Part shown: one piece after another, positions 4,630-19,336 of the stretch
Numbering within the stretch: position 1 is the stretch's first letter
Layout of the letters: every line of letters starts with the position of its first letter
Assembly: GCF_013385985.1 (NCBI RefSeq)
Contig: NZ_JACAOY010000004.1
Coordinates: forward strand, 219,580-283,579
Source of the DNA: Pseudomonas sp. B6002
Lineage (GTDB): Bacteria; Pseudomonadota; Gammaproteobacteria; Pseudomonadales; Pseudomonadaceae
Direction: 5' to 3'
DNA length: 64,000 nt
Made by a program: the position numbers and the translations under genes
The notes under the pieces: model-generated
Told to the model about the DNA's origin: nothing
The model's input: only the letters and a program-made list of their open reading frames with translations
The model's database searches: none

Positions 4630-5277
4630 CTAAGGCACCATCCCAACCTCCCGTGCATATGCAAAAAGGTCAACATCGGTAGATATACACAGCCTGTGCA
4701 TCGCCGTGCTCTTTTGTTTGCTGATAGTTGAGATACTGCGATTGACTCTCGCAGCAATCTGGCTGACGGTCATACCGCTGGCGAGCATGCGTACAACTTC
4801 CTGTTCCTTGCCGGAAAGTGTTGGCGTCTGGGTCGGTTGCGAACCACACACCTGGTCCAATTGCACACGCAGGCACTCACTGACAAATTGTCGGCCCTGC
4901 ACCACGGCATTCAGCGCCTGGGGCAGCTCCCTGGCGGAAGCACTCTTGGCGATCACGCCTCGCGCGCCGTGGCTGAACGCTGCGCGCAGCGTAGCGACAT
5001 TGGCAAACATGGTCACCAGGACTACCGGTAACGCCGGGTACTTTCGGTTCAACAAACCCAACAGGCCGTACCCATCGGCCTGCTGATTTCCCGGCATGGC
5101 GAAGTCGGTCACTATCACGTCGCAGGGTACACGGCTGACCAACGCCAACAATTGATCAGGCCCGTCGGCTTCGCCGACCACTTTGCACTTGCCACTTGCC
5201 TCAATCACCACTTTTTGCCCAACACGAACAATGGGGTGATCGTCAGCAATAATGATGCGGATCATTGGTTTTTCCAT
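4630..5277 (-). CDS. RcsB/BvgA-like response regulator (receiver plus LuxR-type HTH)
   Basis: A 215-aa regulator. The receiver (about 5-125) has the acidic pair in ADDHP and the phospho-acceptor Asp in VIVTDFAMPG, plus the Lys in AKSAS. The C-terminal LuxR-type HTH (about 150-205) carries LSGKEQEVVRMLASGMTVSQ and NRSISTISKQKSTAM, closest in wording to RcsB. No kinase is encoded nearby; the next gene on the same strand is a receiver-Hpt protein that could feed phosphate to it. In P. aeruginosa PA14, an RcsB-type regulator controls cupD fimbriae, so by analogy the fimbrial operon starting at 6614 is a likely target. That link is inference. A second ATG at 5265 is a possible start. Confidence 0.85.
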   Translation of the reverse strand: MEKPMIRIIIADDHPIVRVGQKVVIEASGKCKVVGEADGPDQLLALVSRVPCDVIVTDFAMPGNQQADGYGLLGLLNRKYPALPVVLVTMFANVATLRAAFSHGARGVIAKSASARELPQALNAVVQGRQFVSECLRVQLDQVCGSQPTQTPTLSGKEQEVVRMLASGMTVSQIAARVNRSISTISKQKSTAMHRLCISTDVDLFAYAREVGMVP

Positions 5278-5444: not shown

Positions 5445-6257
5445 TCAAAGTTGCGTAAGATAATTCAGGTACCGCTCGACATCGTGACAGAACGCTCTCA
5501 ATGCCGGTGTATTGATTGCCACACCGTTTACCTGCACCCGTTTGATCAGGTCCACCGCCCTCGCATCCAGGCCAGTCGCCCCCAAAAACGCGACACTGCC
5601 CACTAACCGGTGCAAACGTTGGGCAGCCATAGTCGCGTCCTGAGTGGCCTGCGCGTGAGCCAGCACGGCGAGGTCCGCATCGGCCTCCTGAACCAGACTC
5701 AGCAACAGCGGCTCCACAACCTCCCACGTACCAAACGTCTCGATCAAACTGACGCGACTGGGCACAGTGCCACCGGGCAAAGCCGCAGCCCCTGCGGGTA
5801 GCCCCGCCGAAAGCAAGGGCTTCGGCGACGCCAGCCAGTAGCACAGCACTTCACGCAACTGGGCAAACCCTACGGGTTTGATCAGCCAGCCGTCCATTCC
5901 ACAGGCCACACACTGGCGGATTTCTTCCGGCCCCAGGCCGCCTGTCAGCCCCAGAACAACCAGAGGAAGCCGCCCCTGGGCCTGCTCACGCATTCGCAGT
6001 TCACGAGTCAGGGCGTATCCGTCCATCACCGGCATGCGGCAGTCACTGATCATCAGGTCGAAACACTCGGTAGTCAGCCGTTGCAGAGCCTCTTGACCAT
6101 TGCAACAACACTGATAAGCGACGCCGAGTCGTTCCAGCAGCGAACCCAGCAGAAAACGATAGGCGGGGTGGTCATCCACTACGAGAACACGCGCCCGAGA
6201 CACATCGACAGCAGAAAATGAATCGCTCGAATCGCGTGCAGAAAACTGACCAGGCAT
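5445..6257 (-). CDS. Receiver plus histidine phosphotransfer (Hpt) protein without a kinase domain
   Basis: A 270-aa protein. A receiver at about 22-140 shows VLVVDDHPAYRFLLGSLLER, the phospho-acceptor Asp in LMISDCRMPVMDGYALT and the Lys in WLIKPVGF. A C-terminal Hpt domain at about 180-260 has the phospho-histidine in QRLHRLVGSVAFLGA. This is the tail of an EvgS/BvgS/RcsC-type hybrid kinase without the sensor and kinase parts, so it looks like a relay module fed from elsewhere. The ATG at 6257 has a GAGGG ribosome site 5 bp ahead; an in-frame TTG at 6341 has none. It is divergent from the fimbrial operon and upstream of the RcsB-like regulator, suggesting a three-part local relay. Confidence 0.85.
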   Translation of the reverse strand: MPGQFSARDSSDSFSAVDVSRARVLVVDDHPAYRFLLGSLLERLGVAYQCCCNGQEALQRLTTECFDLMISDCRMPVMDGYALTRELRMREQAQGRLPLVVLGLTGGLGPEEIRQCVACGMDGWLIKPVGFAQLREVLCYWLASPKPLLSAGLPAGAAALPGGTVPSRVSLIETFGTWEVVEPLLLSLVQEADADLAVLAHAQATQDATMAAQRLHRLVGSVAFLGATGLDARAVDLIKRVQVNGVAINTPALRAFCHDVERYLNYLTQL

Positions 6258-6613
6258 GGCGCCCTCGAAAGGGGCGATCAGTTCGCCCGGACTTTTCGCA
6301 ACTAAACAATGACCCCGATCCTTATAAAGGGATCCGGGCAATCAAAGATCGCGAAAAATATCCGAATACATAGCCGTCAGCGATACAACAACTACGACAA
6401 CACCCAATAAAACCTATTATTTCAACAGCCCCGCCCCCTTTTGTCATTGCCACCCTGTCATTCGTAATAGTTGCATTTCCGCCTCTCCCGCCCGGCGATA
6501 AATTCCTCCCCGCTTTCCCTTAAAGCGACGCGTGCCCACCACAACCATAAAACCCATGGGCAACTTCACCGCGTCGCTCTGCCCCTGATCCGTGCATAGG
6601 AATACCGACTGTG
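6258..6613. promoter_or_regulatory. Divergent intergenic region with candidate promoter of the fimbrial locus
   Basis: About 355 bp without a gene, more AT-rich than its surroundings, between the receiver-Hpt gene and the first DUF1120 gene. A possible sigma-70 promoter on the plus strand is TTGTCA at 6441-6446 and TAATAG at 6465-6470 (18-bp spacer), about 140 bp before the first start. No strong palindrome was seen. An RcsB-like regulator bound here would be natural but no site can be named. Confidence 0.35.
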
Positions 6614-7243
6614 ATGAAAGACTCTCTCGCCGCCCTGGCCGGAGCCCTGCTGATCGCCCACGCCAGTACGGCGCTGGCCGCTAGCTCCGTGGACCTTTCG
6701 GTCAAAGGTGCCATTACCCCGAGCGCTTGTACGCCTAGCCTGAGCAATGGCGGGCTGGTGGATTACGGCAAGATCTCGACCCAGGACCTGGACCCGACCG
6801 GGGTCACCGAACTGCCCAGGACCCTCTTCAAGTTGGCGGTCAATTGCGAAGGGTCGAGCCTGTTCGGGCTGAACGCCCAGGACAATCGATCGTCAGTGGC
6901 GGGCCCCGCCGCCTCCTTCGTATTGGGGCGGATCAGCCCGACAAACTGGATCGCCACGTATTTCCTGACCATGGAAAACGTGGTCACCGACGACCCCACC
7001 GCCTACCCGATCTACTCCCTGGATAACGGCTCGACCTGGATCTACAACTCCGAACGGCAGGTACCGGCCAACACACTCAGTGCTTTCGGCAATCAGACGT
7101 CCGGCACACGCGCCCCCGTTCCCCTGACAGATGTAGCGCTGGACCTGATTGTCCAACCCTACATTTTTCCAAAAAGCCAGATCCCGGCAGGCGAAACCAT
7201 TCCCCTGGACGGGTCCGCCACGTTCGAGTTGCGCTACCTATGA
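6614..7243 (+). CDS. DUF1120 fimbrial subunit 1
   Basis: A 209-aa secreted protein: signal peptide ending LAAS, then SSVDLSVKGAITPSACTPSL, an alternating hydrophobic stretch with a Gly like a pilin donor strand. Cys in SAC and in AVNCEG probably form the pilin disulfide, and the C-terminus is ATFELRYL with penultimate Tyr, the chaperone-recognition pattern of chaperone-usher subunits. Its stop overlaps the next start (ATGA), so it leads a translationally coupled array. The ATG at 6614 follows AGGA; a GTG at 6611 is an alternative. Assignment as pilin is inferred from these features and from the chaperone and usher downstream. Confidence 0.85.
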   Translation: MKDSLAALAGALLIAHASTALAASSVDLSVKGAITPSACTPSLSNGGLVDYGKISTQDLDPTGVTELPRTLFKLAVNCEGSSLFGLNAQDNRSSVAGPAASFVLGRISPTNWIATYFLTMENVVTDDPTAYPIYSLDNGSTWIYNSERQVPANTLSAFGNQTSGTRAPVPLTDVALDLIVQPYIFPKSQIPAGETIPLDGSATFELRYL

Positions 7244-7881
7244 AGGCCTCGACACTGTGCCGTTGCGGCACGTTCGGCCTCGTGCTCAACCTGGCCCCTG
7301 TGGCGTTCGCCGCCAGCAACGTGGACCTGACGGTACGCGGCATCATCACCCCCAGCGCGTGTACCCCGAGCCTGGCCCAGGAGGGGCTGATCGACTACGG
7401 CAAGATCGCCGCCCGCGATCTGAACCGCGAGTCCTTCACCCCGTTGCCGCTCACCCAGTTGCCTGCGGCCGTCAACTGCCAGGCCCCAACCCTGTTCGCC
7501 TTGAGGCTCACCGATAACCGCGCCGGCTCCAGCGCCTCCGAGCCCTTCGGTTTCGGGCTCGGACTGACCCACGCCAGCGAACGGATCGGCGTGTACCACA
7601 CCATCTTGCACACGCCCTTGGCAGAGAACGCACCCATCACTCAATTGCAGTCATCAGACAACGGCCAAAGCTGGAGCGTGGTTGAAGAAAACGTCGCTTT
7701 GCCCCCGCTGCGACTGGCCGCGTTCGGGGACGCTTCTTCCGGCGTCTGGAGCCCGCTGCCGATCCAGGCACTGCGTGTGCAAATACGTGTGAGCACGCTG
7801 ATCGCACCGGCCCAGGGCCTGACCCTGGATCGTGAAGTGCCACTGGACGGCTCAGCCACTCTGGACCTGATTTACCTATAG
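7240..7881 (+). CDS. DUF1120 fimbrial subunit 2
   Basis: A 213-aa paralogue with signal peptide ending VAFAAS, then NVDLTVRGIITPSACTPSL. The paired Cys lie in SAC and AVNCQA, and it ends ATLDLIYL with penultimate Tyr. It lacks the GG of the usual SNGG motif (AQEG instead), so it is one of the more diverged members. Its ATG overlaps the previous stop as ATGA and there is no gap for a promoter. Mature body shares the DNRAGS and SSDNGQSW landmarks of the array. Confidence 0.85.
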   Translation: MKASTLCRCGTFGLVLNLAPVAFAASNVDLTVRGIITPSACTPSLAQEGLIDYGKIAARDLNRESFTPLPLTQLPAAVNCQAPTLFALRLTDNRAGSSASEPFGFGLGLTHASERIGVYHTILHTPLAENAPITQLQSSDNGQSWSVVEENVALPPLRLAAFGDASSGVWSPLPIQALRVQIRVSTLIAPAQGLTLDREVPLDGSATLDLIYL

Positions 7882-7921
7882 CGCCTTCACCCTTAACCCT
7901 ACCTTACAAGGACTTGTGCCC

Positions 7922-8536
7922 ATGGACAGACCCACCCTCGCCTTCCTGCTAGCCGCCCTTGCGCCTGGCGCGTTCGCTGCCAGCAGTACGGACCTGAGCG
8001 TCTCCGGAACCATCACCCCCAGCGCCTGCGCACCCGTGCTGTCGAACGGTGGCGTGATCGACCACGGCAAGATGACCTCCAAGGACCTGCAACCCAGCTC
8101 CCCGACGTTGCTCGATCCAGCCGAGATGCGCCTTGAAGTGCAATGCGAGGGTGAGACCTTTTTTACCTTGACCACCGTGGATAACCGCGCGGGCACCTCC
8201 GCCATCAACCCGAGGCACCACGGCCTGGGCATGACCGCCGAGAAAGAAAAACTGGGCAGCGTGGCGTTTTCGCTGTTCGACCCGGTGGCCGATGACAAAC
8301 CGGTCAAGGTGATCACTTCAAGCAACGGGGGCGCCAATTGGGCCGCTTCGATCTACCTGGGGCATGAGGCACTGACCTCGTTTGCCGCCCTCGACGGCCC
8401 CAATACGCCCATCGCCCTGAAAATCCTGAATGCCCGTCTGCGCGCATTCACCATCATCGTGCCCGCCACCGAGCTGACCTTGCTCGATGAGGTGCCACTG
8501 GACGGCCAAGCCACGCTGCAACTCAAGTACTTGTGA
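7922..8536 (+). CDS. DUF1120 fimbrial subunit 3
   Basis: A 204-aa paralogue: short signal peptide ending GAFAAS, then STDLSVSGTITPSACAPVLS, Cys partner in LEVQCEGE and C-terminus ATLQLKYL. Domain landmarks DNRAGTS and SSNGGANW are present. I chose the ATG at 7922 because AAGGA lies 9 bp ahead; an in-frame GTG six bases upstream would place the ribosome site too close. It sits 40 bp after subunit 2. Confidence 0.85.
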   Translation: MDRPTLAFLLAALAPGAFAASSTDLSVSGTITPSACAPVLSNGGVIDHGKMTSKDLQPSSPTLLDPAEMRLEVQCEGETFFTLTTVDNRAGTSAINPRHHGLGMTAEKEKLGSVAFSLFDPVADDKPVKVITSSNGGANWAASIYLGHEALTSFAALDGPNTPIALKILNARLRAFTIIVPATELTLLDEVPLDGQATLQLKYL

Positions 8537-8573
8537 CCCTTTGACCTCAACTTACCTTGATAGGAGCAACACC

Positions 8574-9194
8574 ATGAAAGCCCTGAATGCCCTGTTCGCC
8601 ACCCTGCTGCTCACCGGGACCGGCACGGCCCTCGCCGCCTCAAGCGTGGACCTGACCGTACGTGGATTGATCACTCCGAGTGCCTGTGAGCCAAGCGTGT
8701 CCGGCGGCGGCAATGTGGATATCGGCAAGATTTCGGCCAAGGACCTCAATGCCAATACAGAAACCCCGCTGGCGGATCACACCCTGCAAGTGACCGTCAC
8801 CTGTGACGCCGCCACCTTGATGGCCATTGAGCCCAAGGACAACCGTGCAGGTTCGGCCTCGGTCACCAAAGACACCGCCTTCGGCTTGGGCCTGGTCAAT
8901 AGCAACGAAAAGCTGGGCTACTTCGAAATGACCTTGGGATCGGCGGTGGCCGATGGCGTCAATGTGGATCCCATTGCTTCGCGTGACAATGGCCTGACCT
9001 GGGCACTCCTGGTGTCCCTGATCAACAACGGCATTACCTCCATCGCCAACAGTGCCACCGTCGCGCCCGTTCCGGTCCAGTCACTGGTGGCCGATTTGAC
9101 CGTCTCGCCCTTCATTGCCCCGGCCAACGGTCTGACCCTGACCGAGGAAGTGCCAATCGACGGTTCGACGACCCTGACCGTCAAGTACCTGTAA
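8574..9194 (+). CDS. DUF1120 fimbrial subunit 4
   Basis: A 206-aa paralogue: signal peptide MKALNALFATLLLTGTGTAL, then SSVDLTVRGLITPSACEPSV, Cys partner in VTVTCDAAT and C-terminus TTLTVKYL. TAGGAG lies 9 bp before the ATG. Its last 30 residues closely resemble those of subunit 7 (IAPxNxLTLTxEVPIDGS), which suggests exchange between members. Relative order in a pilus cannot be read from sequence. Confidence 0.87.
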   Translation: MKALNALFATLLLTGTGTALAASSVDLTVRGLITPSACEPSVSGGGNVDIGKISAKDLNANTETPLADHTLQVTVTCDAATLMAIEPKDNRAGSASVTKDTAFGLGLVNSNEKLGYFEMTLGSAVADGVNVDPIASRDNGLTWALLVSLINNGITSIANSATVAPVPVQSLVADLTVSPFIAPANGLTLTEEVPIDGSTTLTVKYL

Positions 9195-9275
9195 TGGAAA
9201 ACGGGCGCAGCCTTTGCGCGCTGCGCCCAGCGCCGCACTCACGGATGTCTCTCAACACGGTTCCAACATCAGACC

Positions 9276-9902
9276 ATGAACACGCTCCCACGCTGCTTGA
9301 TGACGCTCGGTCTCTGCCTGACCGCCACCTCCGCCCTGTGTGCCTCGAAGGTCGACGTGACGTTGACCGGCAGCATCACCCCCAGCGCCTGCACGCCGGT
9401 CCTGTCGCCCAGCGGCATCGTCGACCACGGGCGGGTGCCAGCCCGCTCGCTCAACCAGTACGAGTTTACCGAGCTGCCCATGCGCACGCTGGACATGAAC
9501 GTCACCTGCAACCAGCCCGTGTTGTTCGTGCTGGTGGGTGTGGATAACCGTGCCGACTCCTCCGTGGGGCCAGGCTTCTATTACGGTCTGGGCAACAACA
9601 TCCATGCCCCGGCCGAACGCATGGGCTCGGTGGCCCTGGCCATTCGCGAAGCCGTGGGCGATGGCCAGCGCGCCATTGTGCTGGCCTCCAGCAACCGCGG
9701 CCTGACCTGGTTTCCCGAAACCAACGCCTACCCGGACAACTACATGGGCTTTGCGCACCCCGGCACCCTGGTGCCCGATCCGCACAGCGTGCTCAGCGCC
9801 AAGCTGGACATCAAAACATCGATCAACGCCGCCGCCTACCTGACCCTCGACCAAGAGGTGCCGTTGGACGGCTCCATCGTGCTAGACCTGAGGTATCTGT
9901 AG
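9276..9902 (+). CDS. DUF1120 fimbrial subunit 5
   Basis: A 208-aa paralogue: signal peptide ending ALCAS, then KVDVTLTGSITPSACTPVLS, Cys partner in MNVTCNQPV and C-terminus IVLDLRYL. It is the most divergent in the middle (FYYGLGNNIHAPAERMG) but keeps DNRADS, SSNRGLTW and the penultimate Tyr. It is the last subunit before the chaperone gene, which starts 2 bp after its stop. Confidence 0.85.
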   Translation: MNTLPRCLMTLGLCLTATSALCASKVDVTLTGSITPSACTPVLSPSGIVDHGRVPARSLNQYEFTELPMRTLDMNVTCNQPVLFVLVGVDNRADSSVGPGFYYGLGNNIHAPAERMGSVALAIREAVGDGQRAIVLASSNRGLTWFPETNAYPDNYMGFAHPGTLVPDPHSVLSAKLDIKTSINAAAYLTLDQEVPLDGSIVLDLRYL

Positions 9903-9904
9903 TC

Positions 9905-10654
9905 ATGCTCCCTTTCCCTTGCGTTGCCAAAACAATTACACGGGTGTTCAACCTGGTTCGCTATGCCTCCCTCTACCTCGCCGCGCTGGCGCTGACGTTG
10001 TGGGGCCCCACCCTTGTGCTCGCCGACGGCATGGTGCCGGACACTTCGGTGGTGATCGTCAATGAGGCCGATGGCGAAGCCTCGGTGTCGGTAACCAACA
10101 CTGACGCCAAGCTTGCCCTGCTGCACGTCACCCTCGAAGACATTCCCGAAGACCCGGCGCCCCTGCTGTTTGTCACGCCACCGCTCACACGGGTCGAGCC
10201 GTCCAAGAGCCAGTTGATCCGCTTCATCCTGCAATCTGCCACGCCACTGACCACCCAGCGCTTGAAACGGGTGATCTTCGAAGGCATGCCCCAGGGCCGC
10301 GCCGAAGGCCAGGCCGGGCATGCGCGAGTGGGCGTGACGGTGCGCCAGAACCTGCCGGTGATTCTGCACCCCAAGGGGCTCGCACCAAATCGCACGCCCT
10401 GGACCGGCTTGGTCTGGAGCCTGAAGAACCAGCAACTGAGTGTGAATAACCCGACGCCCTACGTGGTCCGCCTGGCTCAGGAATTGACCTTGCTGCCCGG
10501 CAAAGGCTCAGCCTTGCTGCCACGCACCTACGTGCTACCCGGCGAGACCTTGAGCGTGGCCGCCAGCCAGGCCCAGGCCAGCACCGTGCAGATACAACCG
10601 GCCACCGTCTACGGATTTGCGGTCGCGCCTTACGAAGCACCGATCACCCTTTGA
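9905..10654 (+). CDS. PapD-type periplasmic fimbrial chaperone
   Basis: A 249-aa chaperone with a long signal segment (to about 41) and two immunoglobulin-like domains. The first domain shows VTNTDAKLALLHVTLEDI and FVTPPLTRVEPSKSQLIRFI, the hallmark of PapD-family pilus chaperones; the second starts near KGLAPNRTPW. It should hold DUF1120 subunits by donor-strand complementation and hand them to the usher. The strand that reads like KIKLFYRP in PapD here reads VRQNLPVILHP, so the usual anchoring Lys is not obvious. It starts 2 bp after subunit 5. Confidence 0.9.
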   Translation: MLPFPCVAKTITRVFNLVRYASLYLAALALTLWGPTLVLADGMVPDTSVVIVNEADGEASVSVTNTDAKLALLHVTLEDIPEDPAPLLFVTPPLTRVEPSKSQLIRFILQSATPLTTQRLKRVIFEGMPQGRAEGQAGHARVGVTVRQNLPVILHPKGLAPNRTPWTGLVWSLKNQQLSVNNPTPYVVRLAQELTLLPGKGSALLPRTYVLPGETLSVAASQAQASTVQIQPATVYGFAVAPYEAPITL

Positions 10655-10737
10655 TCGCAGCGCCGGCGGGCCGAATGCCGGCGCCCTGATAACGAAGTGG
10701 CCTCTCATTGAAGGCCGCCGGGAGCTCTCCCGCCACG

Positions 10738-13227
10738 ATGGAATGGCGCGGGCCAGACTCCATTACTCGAGTACGACTTGTGAGCACAGTTATGACTGAT
10801 CGCGACGGCGAAGCCGTGCCTGGTGTTTCATCACCCCGGGCGCGCCAATGGCTGGCGGGCGTTGCGCTGAGCCTGGGCACCGTGCTGCCAACGGCTGCCT
10901 CCCTGGCCGATGAAGGCGCCGGCTCATTTGATCCACAAACCCTGGCCCAACGGGGCATTGACCCGCAATTGGCCAACCTGTTGCTGGAAGCCCCGCGCTT
11001 CCCGGCCGGGCGCCACGCCCTGAACCTCACCGTGAACGGCCAGCGACGTGGGCGGGTGGACATGCTGTTCAACGGGCAAGGCGCGTTGTGTTTCAACCAG
11101 GCCCTACTGGATGCAGGCCACTTGCGCGTACCGGCCGACGATGGCGAATGCCATGCCTTTCTCGAGGCCTACCCGCAGACCTTGATCGAGCAGGATCCCG
11201 CCACCCTCAGCCTGTCGCTGGTCGTGCCCACCGATGCGCTGCGTCCGACCGTGCGCGATGTGTCCGGCTACCAGACCGGCGGGTTCGCCGGGCTGCTCAA
11301 CTATGACCTGAGCGGCCTGTACAACGAATTCGGCGACGACACTAGCCGTTTCGGCTCGGCCAACACCGAGGTCGGTTTCAACGCCGGCGACTGGATCGTG
11401 CGCAGTCGCCAGGTACGCACCTGGCAAGACAAGGTGTCGCGCACCACCCACCTGGACGCCTACGCCCAGCGCACCTTTGCCGAACAGCAAGCAGTGTTCC
11501 AGGCCGGGCAGATCAACCTGTACAACCCGGTATTGGCCGGCGCACAGATCACCGGGGCGCAGGTGCTCACCGAGACGGCCCTGCAGGACCAGAACCAGGG
11601 CGCCACCATCACCGGCATCGCCAACAGCCCGGCCCAGGTGGAGATCCGTCAGAACGGCACGTTGATTCATTCCACCGTGGTGCCGGCGGGGCCGTTCTCC
11701 CTCACCGATGTACGACGCTTGAACAGCCGTTCCGACGTGGAAGTCACGGTCAAGGAAAGCAGCGGCGAGGAACGTCGCTTCACCGTGCCTGCCGCCATGC
11801 TTGGCCTGGGCTTGCCTGCGCCGGGTTACTCGGTGGCCGCGGGACGCGTGCGCAAGCTCGGTGCCGGTGAAGGCGCCGAACCCTGGGTGGTCAGTGGTGG
11901 CTGGAGCGGAACGTTGCACCCGCAAGTCAGTGTGGGTGCCGGCGCGCTCGGCGCCGAAGACTATCGTGCGGTGGGCGCAAACATTGGCTGGCTGCCCTGG
12001 CAGGACAGCCAGCTCCAACTGTCCAGTCAAATCGCCCAGGCCACGCGCAATGGCAACGAACGGGGTGTACAAACCGATCTGTCGTGGTCGCAACGCCTGT
12101 CCGAACGTTGGGCAATCACCACGGCGGGCTCCTGGCGCACCCTGGGTTATCGCGACCTGGAAGACTCCACCTACCTCACCGAAACCCGCGAGCAACGCCA
12201 GTCGCGCTACCGCGACCAACAGAGCGCGACCGCATCCTGGTCACACCCGATGCTCGGCGCATTCAGCGCCGGCATCTCGCGCTCATCCTCGTTTACCGGT
12301 GAGAGCAGCAGCCGCGCGCTGGCATCGTGGGGCACCAGCTTTGGGCGTGTTTCGGTGTCCGCCAGCGCCGAGTGGCAAGTGGGCGGCCGCCAGCAGAGCG
12401 ATGACAGTGTGTACCTGAACATCAGCGTGCCCCTGGGCGAAAGCCGCCGCGGTCGTGCCTGGGCGCGCAATGCCGGAGGCGATCACCGCATCGGGGCCGG
12501 GGTCAGCGAACAGATCAACGACCAGTTGAGCTACCAGGCAAGCGTTGAACGCGACAGCCGTGACCGTGAGGTGGAGTCATCCATCGGTGTCTCGACGCTG
12601 CCGTATTACAGCCAGTTGGACTTCAACTACACCCGCAACAATCAGGAACGTTCCAGCTATCAAGGTGGCGCACGCGGTGGCGTGGTGTTGCACGGCGATG
12701 GGCTGACTTTTTCGCCCTACCCGGTGCGCGAGACCTTTGCGCTGATGTCGGTGGGCGACATGGCCGGCATCAAGGTCAGCACCCCCAGTGGCCCGGTGTG
12801 GACCGACTGGCAAGGCCAGGCCGTGGTGCCGCAACTCAGCCCCTATGGGCGCAGCCCGGTGGAAGTGCAAACCCGCTCGTTGCCGCGCAACGCCGACATC
12901 AGCAATGGCTTGGCAGTGCTGTCGGCCGGGCGTGGCGCCGTAGACAACGTCGAGTTCGGCGTGGCGCTCACACGCCGGGCCCTGTTGAGCGTAACCGACG
13001 CCAACGGCCAGCCTCTCCCCCGCGGCGCCGCCGTCAGCACCGCCAACGGTGAGTTCGTAACCCTGGTTCAGGACGGCAGCCAGGTGTTCTTGCCGGACGT
13101 ATTGGACCGCCGCGAATTGTGGGTCAGCGCCCCTGGTCAACCCCGCTGCCGCCTGGACTTCGAGCTGCCCGAACGGGGCGATCCCGAGGTGTATTACGAA
13201 ACCGCACCGGCACGGTGCCAACCATGA
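10738..13227 (+). CDS. FimD/PapC-type outer-membrane usher
   Basis: An 829-aa usher that forms the secretion and assembly pore for the fimbria. An N-terminal domain (FDPQTLAQRGIDPQLANLLL onward) recruits chaperone-subunit pairs, followed by a 24-strand-type barrel with plug (FNAGDWIVRSRQVRTWQDK, GAQVLTETALQDQNQGATIT) and C-terminal domains with a Cys-containing end (PRCRLDFELPERGDPEVYY). Length fits the family (800-870 aa). The start is uncertain: ATG at 10738, GTG at 10780 and ATG at 10792 are all possible and none has a strong ribosome site. The stop overlaps a possible start of the next gene. Confidence 0.92.
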   Translation: MEWRGPDSITRVRLVSTVMTDRDGEAVPGVSSPRARQWLAGVALSLGTVLPTAASLADEGAGSFDPQTLAQRGIDPQLANLLLEAPRFPAGRHALNLTVNGQRRGRVDMLFNGQGALCFNQALLDAGHLRVPADDGECHAFLEAYPQTLIEQDPATLSLSLVVPTDALRPTVRDVSGYQTGGFAGLLNYDLSGLYNEFGDDTSRFGSANTEVGFNAGDWIVRSRQVRTWQDKVSRTTHLDAYAQRTFAEQQAVFQAGQINLYNPVLAGAQITGAQVLTETALQDQNQGATITGIANSPAQVEIRQNGTLIHSTVVPAGPFSLTDVRRLNSRSDVEVTVKESSGEERRFTVPAAMLGLGLPAPGYSVAAGRVRKLGAGEGAEPWVVSGGWSGTLHPQVSVGAGALGAEDYRAVGANIGWLPWQDSQLQLSSQIAQATRNGNERGVQTDLSWSQRLSERWAITTAGSWRTLGYRDLEDSTYLTETREQRQSRYRDQQSATASWSHPMLGAFSAGISRSSSFTGESSSRALASWGTSFGRVSVSASAEWQVGGRQQSDDSVYLNISVPLGESRRGRAWARNAGGDHRIGAGVSEQINDQLSYQASVERDSRDREVESSIGVSTLPYYSQLDFNYTRNNQERSSYQGGARGGVVLHGDGLTFSPYPVRETFALMSVGDMAGIKVSTPSGPVWTDWQGQAVVPQLSPYGRSPVEVQTRSLPRNADISNGLAVLSAGRGAVDNVEFGVALTRRALLSVTDANGQPLPRGAAVSTANGEFVTLVQDGSQVFLPDVLDRRELWVSAPGQPRCRLDFELPERGDPEVYYETAPARCQP

Positions 13228-13238
13228 GGAACTTAACC

Positions 13239-14366
13239 ATGGGCCTGAAACCTGCCTTGTTGTCCGCCAGCCTGTTGCTGGGCGCTAACGCCTGGGGCAT
13301 GGAAGAGTGCCAGTTGAACCTGAGCGAAACCGCCGTGGATTTCGGCCTGGTGAACCGGGCGGTGTCGCCGGTAGCCGTGGCCGAGCACCTGCTGGGCGAA
13401 CGGCGCCTGAGCCTGACGCTGAACTGCCCCACGCCCACTGACTTGAGCCTGTTCTATCGCGGGCTGGCAGCCGGCACCGAGCGCTTCCAATTCACCCGCC
13501 GTGGCAGCTACAGCCTGCGGGCGAGCGACGCACTGCTCGACGGCCAGCCCGTGGAGTTGGGCCTGGTGCCCGGCAGCGGCCAGCCGCCGGTGAGCAGCGC
13601 CGCAGCCCTGCGCTGGCGTCCTGAACACGGCATCGTGCCGATGCGTGCCGGCGTGCCGGTCAGCGGGCGCAGCTTGTCGTTGCAACTGGAGGTCAGCGCC
13701 TGGGCCAGTCAAGACGCCCTGCGCGTCAGCGATACCGTCACCTGGGACACCAGCGGCGTCGTCGATGCCCTCCACACGGGACGCTCGCGGGAGTTGCGCC
13801 TGCAAGCCCGCTTCGCCCCTGCGGCCTGTACGCCGAGCCTGTCCAACGGCGGCACGGTGGCCTTCGGCAAGTTATCGGTGATGGACCTGAGCGTCGACAA
13901 AGAGACGGCCCTGCCCGCACGACCACTGGTGGTCAGCGTGGCCTGCGACGCACCGACCGCGTTCAGCCTGCGCCTGCAGGACAACCGCCAAGGCTCGGCC
14001 ACCGGCCCGGGAGACGACAGCACCTACGGCCTGGGGCTCGACGCCCAACAACAGAAAATCGGCCGTTACCGGTTGGTCTTCGACCCTGCGCGCACCACCG
14101 CCGACAGTTTCCCCGGGCTCTACCGAACCGACTCCCCCACCGGCACCGCGCCCTGGAGCAGCGCGAGCGCCAACCCGCTGGCGATTGGCGCCAGCCGTTT
14201 CCTGGGGTTCAGCACCAGCGTCGGCAACACCAGCGGCCCCGTGCCGATTCAACAACTCAGCGCCACCACGAGCCTGGAAGCGGTGATCGCACCGCTGGGC
14301 ACGCTGGACCTGGGCAGCGAAGTGCGCCTCGACGGCGCCGCCACCCTCGAACTCAACTACCTCTAG
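13239..14366 (+). CDS. Two-domain DUF1120 protein, probable fimbrial tip adhesin
   Basis: A 375-aa protein: signal peptide ending ANAWG, a unique N-terminal domain (about 20-190, with Cys in EECQLNL and LTLNCPTP, presumably one disulfide) and a C-terminal DUF1120 domain (about 190-375, with AACTPSLSNGG, VSVACDAPT and end ATLELNYL). A pilin domain preceded by a separate Cys-pair domain instead of a free donor strand is the architecture of two-domain tip adhesins such as FimH. It follows the usher directly. AGGA lies 8 bp before ATG 13239; an ATG at 13224 overlapping the usher stop is the alternative start. The binding target is unknown. Confidence 0.8.
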   Translation: MGLKPALLSASLLLGANAWGMEECQLNLSETAVDFGLVNRAVSPVAVAEHLLGERRLSLTLNCPTPTDLSLFYRGLAAGTERFQFTRRGSYSLRASDALLDGQPVELGLVPGSGQPPVSSAAALRWRPEHGIVPMRAGVPVSGRSLSLQLEVSAWASQDALRVSDTVTWDTSGVVDALHTGRSRELRLQARFAPAACTPSLSNGGTVAFGKLSVMDLSVDKETALPARPLVVSVACDAPTAFSLRLQDNRQGSATGPGDDSTYGLGLDAQQQKIGRYRLVFDPARTTADSFPGLYRTDSPTGTAPWSSASANPLAIGASRFLGFSTSVGNTSGPVPIQQLSATTSLEAVIAPLGTLDLGSEVRLDGAATLELNYL

Positions 14367-14376
14367 GAGCCTTCCC

Positions 14377-15012
14377 ATGAAACACCTTCTGATTGCCTTG
14401 GCATTCGTATCGGGCAGCGCACACGCCGCCTCCACCGTTGACCTGGCCGTCACCGGCCTGATCACGCCCATGGCCTGCACGCCGCTGCTGTCCGGCGGTG
14501 GGCTGGTGGACTTCGGCAAGATCTCGCGCAATGACCTCAACCTCACCAACGGTACGCGCCTGCCCCACAAGTACCTGACCCTCACCGTCAACTGCAACGC
14601 ACCTGGCCGCTTCGCCCTGCGCATGCGTGACAACCGCGACGGCACGGCCCACGTCAACAGCGAGATTTTCTACGGCCTGGGCCTGGATACCAGCGGCAAC
14701 AAGATCGGCGTGTACTCGGTGAGCTTCGACCCCAGGCAGACCGTGGTCGACAACCTGGCCGTGGTGTACGGCACCGAATCCACCACCGGCGGCCTGGCCT
14801 GGCGCACCGCCAACCTCAACCCCATCGACGTGGGCTCGCGCAGCCTGCTCGGTTTCACCGATGTGGTCGGCAGCACTGCCGGCCCCTCGGCCATCCAGAC
14901 GCTGACCAGCACCCTGAAGCTGGAAGCCACGCTCAACGCCCGCCAGAACCTGGACCTCAGCGTGGAAACGCCGATGGACGGGTCGGCCACGTTGGAAGTT
15001 GTGTACCTGTAA
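14377..15012 (+). CDS. DUF1120 fimbrial subunit 6
   Basis: A 211-aa paralogue: signal peptide MKHLLIALAFVSGSAHAAS, then TVDLAVTGLITPMACTPLLS, Cys partner in LTVNCNAPG and C-terminus ATLEVVYL. TAGGAG sits 8 bp before the ATG and 10 bp separate it from the adhesin-like gene. A degenerate copy of its last 110 bp lies at 15692-15805, evidence that this end of the array was tandemly duplicated. Confidence 0.87.
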   Translation: MKHLLIALAFVSGSAHAASTVDLAVTGLITPMACTPLLSGGGLVDFGKISRNDLNLTNGTRLPHKYLTLTVNCNAPGRFALRMRDNRDGTAHVNSEIFYGLGLDTSGNKIGVYSVSFDPRQTVVDNLAVVYGTESTTGGLAWRTANLNPIDVGSRSLLGFTDVVGSTAGPSAIQTLTSTLKLEATLNARQNLDLSVETPMDGSATLEVVYL

Positions 15013-15047
15013 TTCGCGTTTTTTCCCAACCCTGTAGGAGCAATACC

Positions 15048-15671
15048 ATGAGCATCACCCGTAACCTGTTGATCACCGCGCTGATGATGAGCGCAGGCCA
15101 TGTGGTCGCCGCGTCCAGCGTCGACCTGAGCGTCAAGGGGACGATCACCCCGAGTGCGTGTGAGGTCAGTGTCTCGAACGGCGGTCAATTTGACTTGGGC
15201 AAAATCGCCGCCAAGGATCTGTCCCCAGACGGCGCTACATACTTACCCGTGCTGAATGCCGAGGTGACGACCACCTGTGAGGGCGCGACGTTGATAGCGC
15301 TTGAGCCCAAGGACAATCGCGCCGGTTCGGCCCACATCAACGACGACTACTTGTTCGGGCTGGGCTTGATCAACGGTACCGAGAAACTAGGGGCCATGAC
15401 GGCCGCGCTCCGCTCTCACATCGCAGATGGCGTGGTGGCCTATTCCATCAACTCGTCGGATGGCGGTCTGACTTGGACCACAGGAGGGTTTTTCAAACCG
15501 ACAAGTAACCTTGTCTCGGTTCGTCAGGGCGCTACCACCGCTCCGGTACCGGTGCAACTCCTGGTTTCAACCCTGCGGATCGAGGCGGAAATTGCCCCGA
15601 CCAACAGCCTGACCCTGACCAATGAAGTTCCCATCGACGGCTCGATCACCCTGACCGTGCGTTACCTCTGA
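15048..15671 (+). CDS. DUF1120 fimbrial subunit 7
   Basis: A 207-aa paralogue: signal peptide MSITRNLLITALMMSAGHVV, then SSVDLSVKGTITPSACEVSV, Cys partner in TTTCEGAT and C-terminus ITLTVRYL. Its first 38 residues differ from those of subunit 8 at one position, whereas the remaining parts are much less similar. The C-terminal part instead resembles subunit 4. It therefore looks like a mosaic of a recently copied leader cassette on an older body. Confidence 0.87.
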   Translation: MSITRNLLITALMMSAGHVVAASSVDLSVKGTITPSACEVSVSNGGQFDLGKIAAKDLSPDGATYLPVLNAEVTTTCEGATLIALEPKDNRAGSAHINDDYLFGLGLINGTEKLGAMTAALRSHIADGVVAYSINSSDGGLTWTTGGFFKPTSNLVSVRQGATTAPVPVQLLVSTLRIEAEIAPTNSLTLTNEVPIDGSITLTVRYL

Positions 15672-15691
15672 CCCTTGTCGCCAATCCCCTA

Positions 15692-15805
15692 GACGCTGAC
15701 CAGCCGCCTGAAGCTGGAAGCCACACAACGCCCGACAGAACCTGGACGCTCAGCGTGGAAACGCCGATGGACGGATCGGCCACGTTGGAAGTTGTGTACC
15801 TGTAA
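15692..15805 (+). pseudogene. Fossil 3' end of a DUF1120 gene (copy of subunit 6)
   Basis: From 15692 the sequence follows the last codons of subunit 6 (14901-15012), through the region encoding the DGSATLEVVYL end and its TAA. Small insertions and deletions early in the copy (around 15725-15752) break the frame, and no start or body precedes it. Downstream, the copy continues into the same 35-bp spacer, ribosome site and leader that precede subunit 7. It is the scar of a tandem duplication whose gene body was lost or replaced. Confidence 0.85.
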
Positions 15806-15840
15806 TTCGCGTTTTTTCCCAACCCTGTAGGAGCAATACC

Positions 15841-16461
15841 ATGAGCATCACCCGTAACCTGTTGATCACCGCGCTGATGATGAGCGCAGGCCATGTGTCC
15901 GCCGCGTCCAGCGTCGACCTGAGCGTCAAAGGCACAATCACCCCAAGCGCCTGTACACCCACACTGGGTAACGGCGGGGTCATTGATATCGGCAAGATCT
16001 CCACAAAGGAGCTCAATGCTGACAGGGCGACTCATATTCCCACCCCCCTCATCAAACTGACCGTCACCTGCGATGCCGCGACACTGATGGCAGTCTCGGG
16101 CAAAGACAATCGGGCAGGTACCCACTTCGAAGAGGACAACCCGTACGACTTCGGCCTGGGATTGATCAATGGCACCGAAAAATTGGGCGGTATTGAGTTG
16201 CGTGTGGATAACCCCATTGCCGATGGCGTGGCAGTACGCACAATCGCGTCCGACGACGGTGGACCCTGGTATGGGGGGCGGGTCCTTGCAACCACTACAT
16301 TGATCTCGGTCGCAAACACCGGCAGCCTGGCCCCAATCCCGGTGCAAGTGCTGAGTGCCGACATGTCGTCCTATCTGAGTATTGCACCCACTAAAAATCT
16401 GACCCTTGATAAAGAGGTCGCAATCGACGGCTCCGCAACAATCACCGTGAACTACCTGTAA
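15841..16461 (+). CDS. DUF1120 fimbrial subunit 8
   Basis: A 206-aa paralogue: signal peptide as in subunit 7, then SSVDLSVKGTITPSACTPTL, Cys partner in LTVTCDAAT and C-terminus ATITVNYL. The upstream spacer, TAGGAG site and the first 38 codons are almost identical to those of subunit 7, then the proteins diverge. It is the last gene of the fimbrial array and converges on the MFS gene with a single base between the stops. Confidence 0.87.
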   Translation: MSITRNLLITALMMSAGHVSAASSVDLSVKGTITPSACTPTLGNGGVIDIGKISTKELNADRATHIPTPLIKLTVTCDAATLMAVSGKDNRAGTHFEEDNPYDFGLGLINGTEKLGGIELRVDNPIADGVAVRTIASDDGGPWYGGRVLATTTLISVANTGSLAPIPVQVLSADMSSYLSIAPTKNLTLDKEVAIDGSATITVNYL

Positions 16462-18539: not shown

Positions 18540-18851
18540 ATGGAAAAGTACACACCTCACTACGATTTGGCGTTGGTTAAGGCTGAGGTCATTAAGTTGG
18601 GTTTCAGGGCGTTCACCGCAACTGCCCGAGAGGGAGCTCGACAGCTCGAATTGAGCCTGGACCAAATGCAACAGGTGGTCTGCGCCCTTGAGCGCCGAAT
18701 GTTGTGCAAATCGATGACGACCTATGCAGACCATCGGGTATGGCAGGACGTCTACCTGATCAAGATTTACGGCACGGAGATTTACATCAAGGTCACTTAC
18801 CGCCCAGGCGGTGGTCCTCCCGTAATCTCCTTCAAGGAGAAACCCCTATGA
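18540..18851 (+). CDS. mqsR: MqsR-family mRNA interferase toxin
   Basis: A 103-aa toxin that in the family cuts mRNA at GCU/GCA. It has the MEKxTPH start and the diagnostic KSMTTYADHRVWQDVY block (about 57-72), with the Lys, Gln and Tyr corresponding to the catalytic set of E. coli MqsR, and the ISFKEK end. E. coli MqsR is 98 aa, so the length fits. It lies upstream of its antitoxin, the unusual order of mqsRA, and overlaps it by ATGA. Probably regulated through the palindrome at 18501. Confidence 0.95.
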   Translation: MEKYTPHYDLALVKAEVIKLGFRAFTATAREGARQLELSLDQMQQVVCALERRMLCKSMTTYADHRVWQDVYLIKIYGTEIYIKVTYRPGGGPPVISFKEKPL

Positions 18852-19336
18852 GAACCCAGCAATGCATGAGCTGCGGAACCCATGACGCAATGCAGCACTT
18901 CGAAGGTCGCACCTTCACGATCAACACGCGGGGAATGGTTCGAGATATCCCCGACATTGCAGGCTGGGAATGCGAGGTCTGCCATGAAGTTGAATTCGAT
19001 CACGACGACGACAGTGCAGAGCGTTATTGCAAGGCCTCTGATCTGCTGTTGATCGACGCACGCAAAATCATCGCCGCCGAAATGAAGCGAATCCGCCGCA
19101 AACTGCACCTCACGCAAAAAGACGCGGTGAGGCTCTTCACCGTCCGTGGGCACAATGCATTTTCACGCTACGAACGGGCTGAAATTTTTCCGCCGGAACC
19201 GTTGCTCACATTGATGCGCCTTCTGGATAAACACCCACACCTGCTGGCTGAAATCGAGGTCCTCAACGCGGGGAAAGACTTGAACCAACTACTCATCGCC
19301 AGGGATGCACAGCTACTGGCGGCTCAGGCGTCCTGA
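18848..19336 (+). CDS. mqsA: MqsA-family antitoxin
   Basis: A 162-aa antitoxin and autorepressor. The N-terminal zinc domain has CMSC (6-9) and CEVC (42-45); the C-terminal Xre-type HTH (about 75-130) has LTQKDAVRLF and HNAFSRYERAE, with the Asn and Arg used by MqsA to read its palindrome. It is about 30 residues longer than the E. coli protein, mostly at the C-terminus. Its start overlaps the mqsR stop, so antitoxin translation follows toxin translation. Confidence 0.93.
   Translation: MRTQQCMSCGTHDAMQHFEGRTFTINTRGMVRDIPDIAGWECEVCHEVEFDHDDDSAERYCKASDLLLIDARKIIAAEMKRIRRKLHLTQKDAVRLFTVRGHNAFSRYERAEIFPPEPLLTLMRLLDKHPHLLAEIEVLNAGKDLNQLLIARDAQLLAAQAS

Follow-up and report, generated by a model that had tools for sequence, protein, structure and literature searches.

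An array of DUF1120 proteins as the likely pilins of a beta-clade chaperone-usher fimbria in Pseudomonas

A 64,000-nucleotide stretch of the genome of Pseudomonas sp. B6002 (assembly GCF_013385985.1, contig NZ_JACAOY010000004.1, positions 219,580 to 283,579 of the forward strand; hereafter the window, whose first letter is position 1) carries, between positions 6614 and 16461, a chaperone-usher locus rich in proteins of the family DUF1120. Comparison with related loci gives good support to the conclusion that these proteins are most likely the pilins of the system. The locus very probably specifies a beta-clade fimbria made by donor-strand assembly, with a tip that has no donor segment and with variable shaft or display subunits. 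Its eleven genes all lie on the + strand, in the order S1 to S5, chaperone, usher, two-domain protein, S6 to S8; neighbors overlap by 4 bases at two points and elsewhere lie 2-169 bases apart. The gene set described in a first-pass annotation of this DNA (eight single-domain and one two-domain DUF1120 protein, one PapD-type chaperone, one FimD-type usher) was found there in full:

6614..7243, +: S1, putative DUF1120 pilin (PF06551 55.7 bits; alternative start 6611)
7240..7881, +: S2, putative DUF1120 pilin (PF06551 46.3 bits)
7916..8536, +: S3, putative DUF1120 pilin (PF06551 53.6 bits; start 7916 or 7922)
8574..9194, +: S4, putative DUF1120 pilin, variable (PF06551 55.8 bits)
9276..9902, +: S5, putative DUF1120 pilin, adjoining the chaperone gene (PF06551 50 bits)
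9905..10654, +: periplasmic pilus chaperone, beta type (PapD_N 67.9 bits, PapD_C 28.7 bits; PRK09918 252 bits)
10708..13227, +: outer-membrane usher (Usher 304 bits, PapC_N, PapC_C; nearest model PRK15304; start uncertain, with in-frame ATG codons also at 10738 and 10792)
13224..14366, +: two-domain candidate tip, D1 + D2 (D1 nearest to PRK15301, D2 to PRK15303; DUF1120 in D2, 60.5 bits)
14377..15012, +: S6, putative DUF1120 pilin, adjoining the tip gene (PF06551 69.3 bits)
14956..15161, +: direct repeat, copy 1 (3' end of S6, spacer, S7 signal peptide and donor segment; 206 nucleotides, 96% identical to copy 2)
15048..15671, +: S7, putative DUF1120 pilin, variable (PF06551 43.6 bits)
15749..15954, +: direct repeat, copy 2 (apparent remnant of an S6 3' end, then the head of S8)
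15841..16461, +: S8, putative DUF1120 pilin, variable (PF06551 59.3 bits; PF00419 Fimbrial 18.3 bits, below the cut-off of 25.6)

DUF1120 proteins carry the marks of pilins

All eight single-domain proteins match PF06551 (DUF1120, cut-off 21 bits) at 43.6-69.3 bits, as does the second domain (D2) of the two-domain protein at 60.5 bits; the mature forms of S1 to S8 are 33-57% identical in pairs. The first-pass annotation had proposed that DUF1120 is itself a pilin family with one common layout, and both parts of this proposal are largely borne out. Chaperone and usher genes stand beside 120 of 121 DUF1120 loci (see below), and an alternating hydrophobic segment, a Cys in an xAC motif and a C-terminal Tyr-Leu recur in all eight subunits and in D2. 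The second Cys, placed about 45 residues further on by that annotation, has a spacing of 39 in S8, in D2 and in the first domain (D1) of the two-domain protein. The Gly assigned to the interior strand of the two-domain protein proved mistaken: that column holds Ala in all 56 tips of a first alignment, and in a second tip alignment departs from Ala in three of 22 rows (Trp in L041 and L049, Val in L087).

A donor-like pattern of two alternating hydrophobic residues, a Gly and a Cys seven residues past the Gly is present in 439 of 451 subunits of the loci read. When subunits from 81 named loci were aligned on this Cys, Leu6 was found in 94%, Val8 in 94%, Gly10 in 99% and Ile12 in 92% of 413 out of 428 sequences, the other 15, without a Cys at the cut place, being left out; rows were cut by a Pro-to-Cys pattern that sets the Cys at place 17, which by construction fixes the position of the Cys and in large part accounts for the value at Pro14. 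What is expected of a pilin, namely an N-terminal donor segment, two Cys residues and a conserved C-terminal strand, is found in these sequences, and the two conserved Cys residues would form a disulphide.

Type 1 fimbriae (Fim) likely share the donor-strand mechanism, and the donor segment and Cys align, weakly, with those of FimG. A search of PDB sequences with the subunit profile likewise retrieved FimG weakly, at E 0.013 for the chain with its signal peptide and 0.11 for the mature chain. A 92% match between DUF1120 and type-1 pilin profiles was dropped as main evidence, since it is largely owed to signal peptides.

Many subunits also carry an Asp-box, the hairpin motif of sialidases (BNR repeats). 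The strict form occurs in 204 of 428 subunits, and in none of the 428 after a single shuffle of each; a relaxed pattern finds 399. Its Trp is invariant in alignment A3 (88 sequences), an example being SSDGGLTW of S7, and through this motif the subunit profile matches sialidases of solved structure weakly (best E 1.1e-4). The Asp-box thereby offers some ground for regarding DUF1120 proteins as secreted carbohydrate-active or receptor proteins with no relation to pilins. That a chaperone and an usher adjoin the gene in all loci but one argues the other way; we consider this explanation extremely improbable, and the notion of an orphan secreted protein is disfavored on the same count. The motifs may say something about the body of the subunit, and no function follows from them. 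Among the literature matches listed, none tied the Asp-box to fimbriae, and DUF1120 was not found together with the word "fimbria" in the literature searched; an earlier assignment to beta-fimbriae may exist.

The locus very likely belongs to the beta clade

The locus is, on good support, a beta-clade chaperone-usher fimbria like Yhc of E. coli and Stj of Salmonella, and not a new kind. Against NCBIfam, the usher scored best with PRK15304 (661 bits, short of the model's cut-off of 723), the next model reaching 199. In the same comparison, run without S3 and S7, the subunits and D2 fell nearest to PRK15302 and PRK15303, D1 to PRK15301 and the chaperone to PRK09918, the last being the only model whose curated cut-off was reached. 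We take PRK15301 to PRK15304 to be the Stj models and PRK15304 to be that of StjB.

An independent mark agrees with the beta class. The chaperone of the window has Val at the column of FimC Arg8 and Pro at that of Lys112. Among the 120 chaperones of the surveyed loci, Arg is found at the first column in none (there is one gap) and Pro at the second in 120, while Arg is retained at two further columns, in 119 and 120 of them, respectively. Passages of PMC4654587 describe the classical chaperone anchor residues as absent from beta-fimbriae; chaperones without Arg8 and Lys112 are therefore no new discovery. Yhc and Stj are termed beta-fimbriae in passages of PMC5216030, PMC9238391 and PMC3373541, and StjB a beta usher in PMC9238391. 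By analogy with Yhc, DUF1120 may define the beta class. The locus differs from classical type 1 fimbriae both in the absence of Arg8 and Lys112 and in its subunits, the best of which scores 18.3 with PF00419 against a cut-off of 25.6. The genome of the window (G000) holds eight usher matches in all, two of which are beta loci.

Chaperone, usher and candidate tip gene accompany the subunits

DUF1120 was found in 105 of 299 genomes sampled within the genus of the window and in eight of 398 sampled across the phylum, three of the eight lying outside the genus. The 121 loci that were read comprise at least one from each of the 105 genus genomes and of the three genomes outside the genus, further loci of multi-locus genomes being read in part. 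Two of the sets, L040-L099 and L102-L181, share species and some contigs and so are not independent; the second was found with a fused tip as query and cannot show how frequent fused tips are. A control of 14 genomes gave no DUF1120 match, though E. coli can carry strong members, so that either the search may miss members or the E. coli strain of the control may be without them.

Besides chaperone and usher (120 of 121 loci), a tip-domain gene is present in 115. Subunits consistently found apart from chaperone and usher would have spoken against the pilin assignment; this was looked for, and the sole orphan among the DUF1120 genes read, L265 (G234:C77), has neither within about 10 kb on either side, in a genome that holds two other complete loci (L243 and L266). 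Architecture was counted after setting five of the 121 loci aside: L099, which is broken into fragments, L091 and L252 (fragmented or oddly split frames), L225 (two loci) and the orphan. The 75 loci with a fused, two-domain tip have a median of five single-domain subunits (range 1-12), and the 36 with a stand-alone tip protein a median of one (range 1-5); no tip gene was found in the remaining five. All these loci are related, so that the test value of the difference is no clean probability. The view that so many subunits for one usher are unusual is not supported in that form, this being the usual state of Pseudomonas loci with a fused tip. The genome of the window has one locus of each architecture. 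In 20 of 81 loci (L103, L105, L108-L116 and others) an extra DUF1120 subunit lies upstream of the operon in the opposite orientation. L212 and L269 have the order subunit, usher, chaperone, with no tip-domain gene found, and are possibly a separate sub-branch.

The two-domain protein is a candidate tip

D1 is not matched by PF06551, and its kinship to the subunits is visible by profile comparison only. From the Cys to the C-terminus, hhalign matched D1 to the subunits at 96.5% (E 9e-10), and to the mature subunits at 96.6% (E 7e-10), as compared with 3% for the best of 40 column shuffles. D1 showed no match to the type-1 pilin alignment (1.1%), and a PDB sequence search with the tip alignment returned two matches, at E 0.75 and 0.88, neither of them a pilin.

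The donor motif precedes the Cys in none of 75 fused tips and one of 41 stand-alone tip proteins, as against 439 of 451 subunits; the tip counts are rough, the script having sometimes taken a signal-peptide Cys, in fused and stand-alone tips alike. Since only an apparent signal peptide comes ahead of the Cys of D1, most D1 rows start a few residues before it. The tips of L080 and L084 have a longer stretch ahead of the Cys, which is not donor-like. By eye, the C-terminus of the stand-alone tips falls at about the start of the internal donor-like segment of the fused protein. E. coli YhcE is homologous to D1, judging from its match to the tip alignment (97.6%, E 4e-12) and to model NF011829 (1.1e-14), signal peptides lying within both matches. 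A subunit that accepts a strand and cannot donate one must come first, so by the established rules of donor-strand assembly D1 or YhcE would be the natural tip. In passages of PMC5216030 the function of YhcE is given as unclear.

Those passages, and others of PMC3373541, describe the beta class as having no tip subunit or typical adhesin gene and as possibly forming thin fibrillae or afimbrial structures. The product could, on that account, be a thin fibrillar or afimbrial coat rather than a pilus. We regard this as unlikely, given that a candidate tip gene accompanies 115 of the 121 loci and that Stj, according to passages of PMC5583245, is seen as long, slightly curved appendages in the thin, 2.3-3.5 nm group.

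Most subunit slots are old but turn over unevenly

The 509 DUF1120 domains of 81 loci were placed in a FastTree tree, read without branch supports. The nearest leaf belongs to another locus for 485 domains, in at least 381 cases to the same slot, and to the same locus for only 24. Since nearest leaves lie in other loci, most subunit slots are old and orthologous. The tree bears directly on the idea that the array arose by recent duplication and that its members are redundant, without separate roles. Such an origin would fit the 52-57% identity among S4, S7 and S8 and the duplicated head common to S7 and S8. The placement of leaves argues against it, as does a ratio of nonsynonymous to synonymous substitution rates (dN/dS) below 0.4 in all eleven comparisons with the closest relative (see below). 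As an account of the array it is very improbable: recent duplication is unlikely for most slots on the tree and possible for S7 and S8.

Turnover was measured as the median best match over pairs of loci grouped by usher identity, pairs that share loci and are not independent. Among the 42 pairs with ushers at least 88% identical, the median is 90% for the subunit next to the chaperone (position u1), 89% for the S6-class subunit and 89% for tip D2, with at most 1% of comparisons in these classes under 75%. Other upstream subunits stand at 72%, other downstream ones at 59% and divergent ones at 48%, the lowest of all classes, and 56%, 75% and 100% of their respective comparisons fall under 75%. 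Among close relatives, then, the tip is nearly constant, as are the subunits next to it and to the chaperone, and the others turn over faster. Of the earlier suggestion of variable or mixed fibres, the variable part holds, in that subunits differ between close relatives; a mixed assembly would be a further step.

The same pathway might instead make use of alternative subunits, one or two in a fibre at a time and others under other conditions. The window has eight subunits and its nearest named relative seven, and a number that differs among close relatives suggests that some are dispensable; the divergent extra subunit, moreover, would need a promoter of its own. Set against this are the close spacing of the eleven genes of the window on a single strand and the retention of slots across species, which suggests use of each. 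On balance such alternation seems rather doubtful.

Subunit bodies differ between kept ends

The nearest named relative is the locus of Pseudomonas sp. P7548 (L102), whose tip is 96% identical. The two loci are 92-97% identical in DNA over S1 (97.1%), S2, S3, S5, chaperone, usher, tip and S6, as compared with 78% for S4 and 66% for S7. A single gene of P7548 stands in the place of S7 and S8. S7 is 59% identical in protein to the gene at its place, with a synonymous rate (dS) of 0.98; S8 and its upstream part match that single gene at 79% over about 510 bases (blastn). In S4, 60-base segments are 95% identical at 8600 and 9140 and 67-77% between; the flanking spacers are 84% (before, 37 bases) and 94% (after) identical, and a single difference falls within the 31 N-terminal residues, which comprise the signal peptide and the donor segment. 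For S4, dS comes to 0.48, and for S7 and S8 to about 1.0, as against 0.08-0.28 for the other eight genes, dN/dS being 0.34-0.38 and 0.06-0.17, respectively. The raised dS fits replacement of alleles better than fast amino-acid change alone. On the slot tree, S4 of the window is nearer to S4 of L104 (0.39) than to that of P7548 (0.47), whereas its other shared slots are nearest to P7548.

The 206-base direct repeat runs from the end of S6 through the S7 signal peptide and donor segment, and recurs before and within S8; in both S7 and S8 it ends at the Cys that follows the donor segment.

Within the usher gene, three 60-base segments at 11900-12080 are 75-80% identical to P7548, most of the gene being 90-100%; this may be another exchanged segment.

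Neighboring genes

Two genes upstream of the locus, and on the opposite strand, encode response regulators:

4630..5277, -: LuxR-type response regulator (Response_reg + GerE), divergent from the locus
5445..6341, -: response regulator with Hpt (Response_reg 4.3e-21; Hpt 23.7 bits, below the cut-off of 24.6)

Of 80 named loci, 77 have a homologue of the LuxR-type protein (E < 1e-30), in every case on the opposite strand; its median distance from the first subunit frame is 1.1 kb (range -2.2 to 1.5 kb), and the three loci that lack one start at the first subunit or usher frame. The LuxR-type protein is a probable regulator of the fimbrial locus. The Hpt protein, with a homologue in 40 of the 80, is a possible one. 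Two small genes at 18540-19336 (+) resemble, by eye, what we take to be a toxin-antitoxin pair of the MqsR/MqsA type.

Discussion

On the mechanism proposed here, subunits would pass into the periplasm, be bound there by the chaperone and polymerize at the usher by donor-strand exchange, the N-terminal alternating hydrophobic segment with its Gly serving as donor and filling the place of a missing strand in the neighboring subunit. Because it has no donor segment at its own N-terminus, the two-domain protein would be the first, distal subunit of the resulting, possibly adhesive, fiber. D1 would be an ancient tip protein, once free-standing, that has become joined to a pilin domain, and the internal donor-like segment of D2 probably completes D1 in cis. 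S5 and S6 may hold fixed positions, as adaptor or terminator, while S4, S7 and S8, and the counterparts of S1-S3 in other species, would be variable shaft or display subunits; their donor segments are similar, so the usher should use them interchangeably. Recombination in S4 and S7/S8 seems to have exchanged or duplicated the pilin body beside a kept signal peptide and donor segment. A bolder version, which we put forward tentatively as a possibility rather than an expectation, is that the array forms a recombining repertoire of pilins, interchangeable subunits from which one usher makes mixed fibers. Their donor segments and C-terminal strands would be retained, and strains would trade the exposed bodies through homologous exchange at these conserved ends, the variable set being framed by the donor-less fused tip and two conserved subunits.

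Several observations weigh against the main picture. Mature DUF1120 sequences match type-1 pilins at just 15% with hhalign (E 0.0017, the best of 40 shuffles giving 0.0081). No tip-domain gene was found in five of the 121 loci, to which the one orphan subunit is to be added. The frame is not universal: an S5-class subunit stands at u1 in just 52 of 81 loci and an S6-class subunit downstream in 70, and ten have no upstream subunit. The contrast in turnover becomes smaller among the 273 pairs with usher identity of at least 80%, where medians are 78% for u1, 78% for the tip and 82% for the S6 class (37%, 31% and 14% of comparisons under 75%), as against 62% for other upstream, 54% for other downstream and 51% for divergent subunits. 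Kept ends around a changed body were followed base by base in one close pair only (S4 of the window and P7548). Like heads with unlike bodies recur without being common: across the 81 loci, including that of the window, heads at least 88% identical occur in ten of 1012 within-locus subunit pairs, from eight loci (median head identity 53%), and bodies are under 75% identical in eight of the ten.

Known systems place the locus in context. Yhc (gltF-yhcA-yhcD-yhcE-yhcF) has, like the window, the order subunit, chaperone, usher, tip-domain gene, subunit, and in one E. coli strain DUF1120 matches GltF at 8.5e-46 and YhcF at 1.4e-47; Yhc differs in having two subunits instead of eight, and a stand-alone YhcE without a fused DUF1120 domain. 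The likeness to Stj lies in the nearness of usher, subunits, D1 and D2 to PRK15301-15304, presumably the Stj models, and so is a likeness at the level of models. PRK15301 is a model of 189 positions, whereas its counterpart domain in the window is fused to a pilin domain. The second beta locus of the same genome (L182, G000:C2) clusters subunit, chaperone, usher and tip domain as the window does, but has a single subunit and a stand-alone tip protein. Passages of PMC5583245 describe the fibers of Salmonella Stj as long, slightly curved and thin.

Beta-fimbriae have been little studied: passages of a 2012 paper (PMC3373541) state that the class is without any structural or functional information, and passages of PMC5216030 call the function of Yhc fimbriae unclear. 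The present comparison assigns a probable role to DUF1120, singles out a candidate tip (YhcE, D1) and separates conserved from diversifying subunits among close relatives, so that the identity of the tip, what YhcE does and whether fibers are mixed become directly testable. If the idea of a recombining repertoire is true, such loci would constitute a modular system for diversifying fiber surfaces in environmental Pseudomonas.

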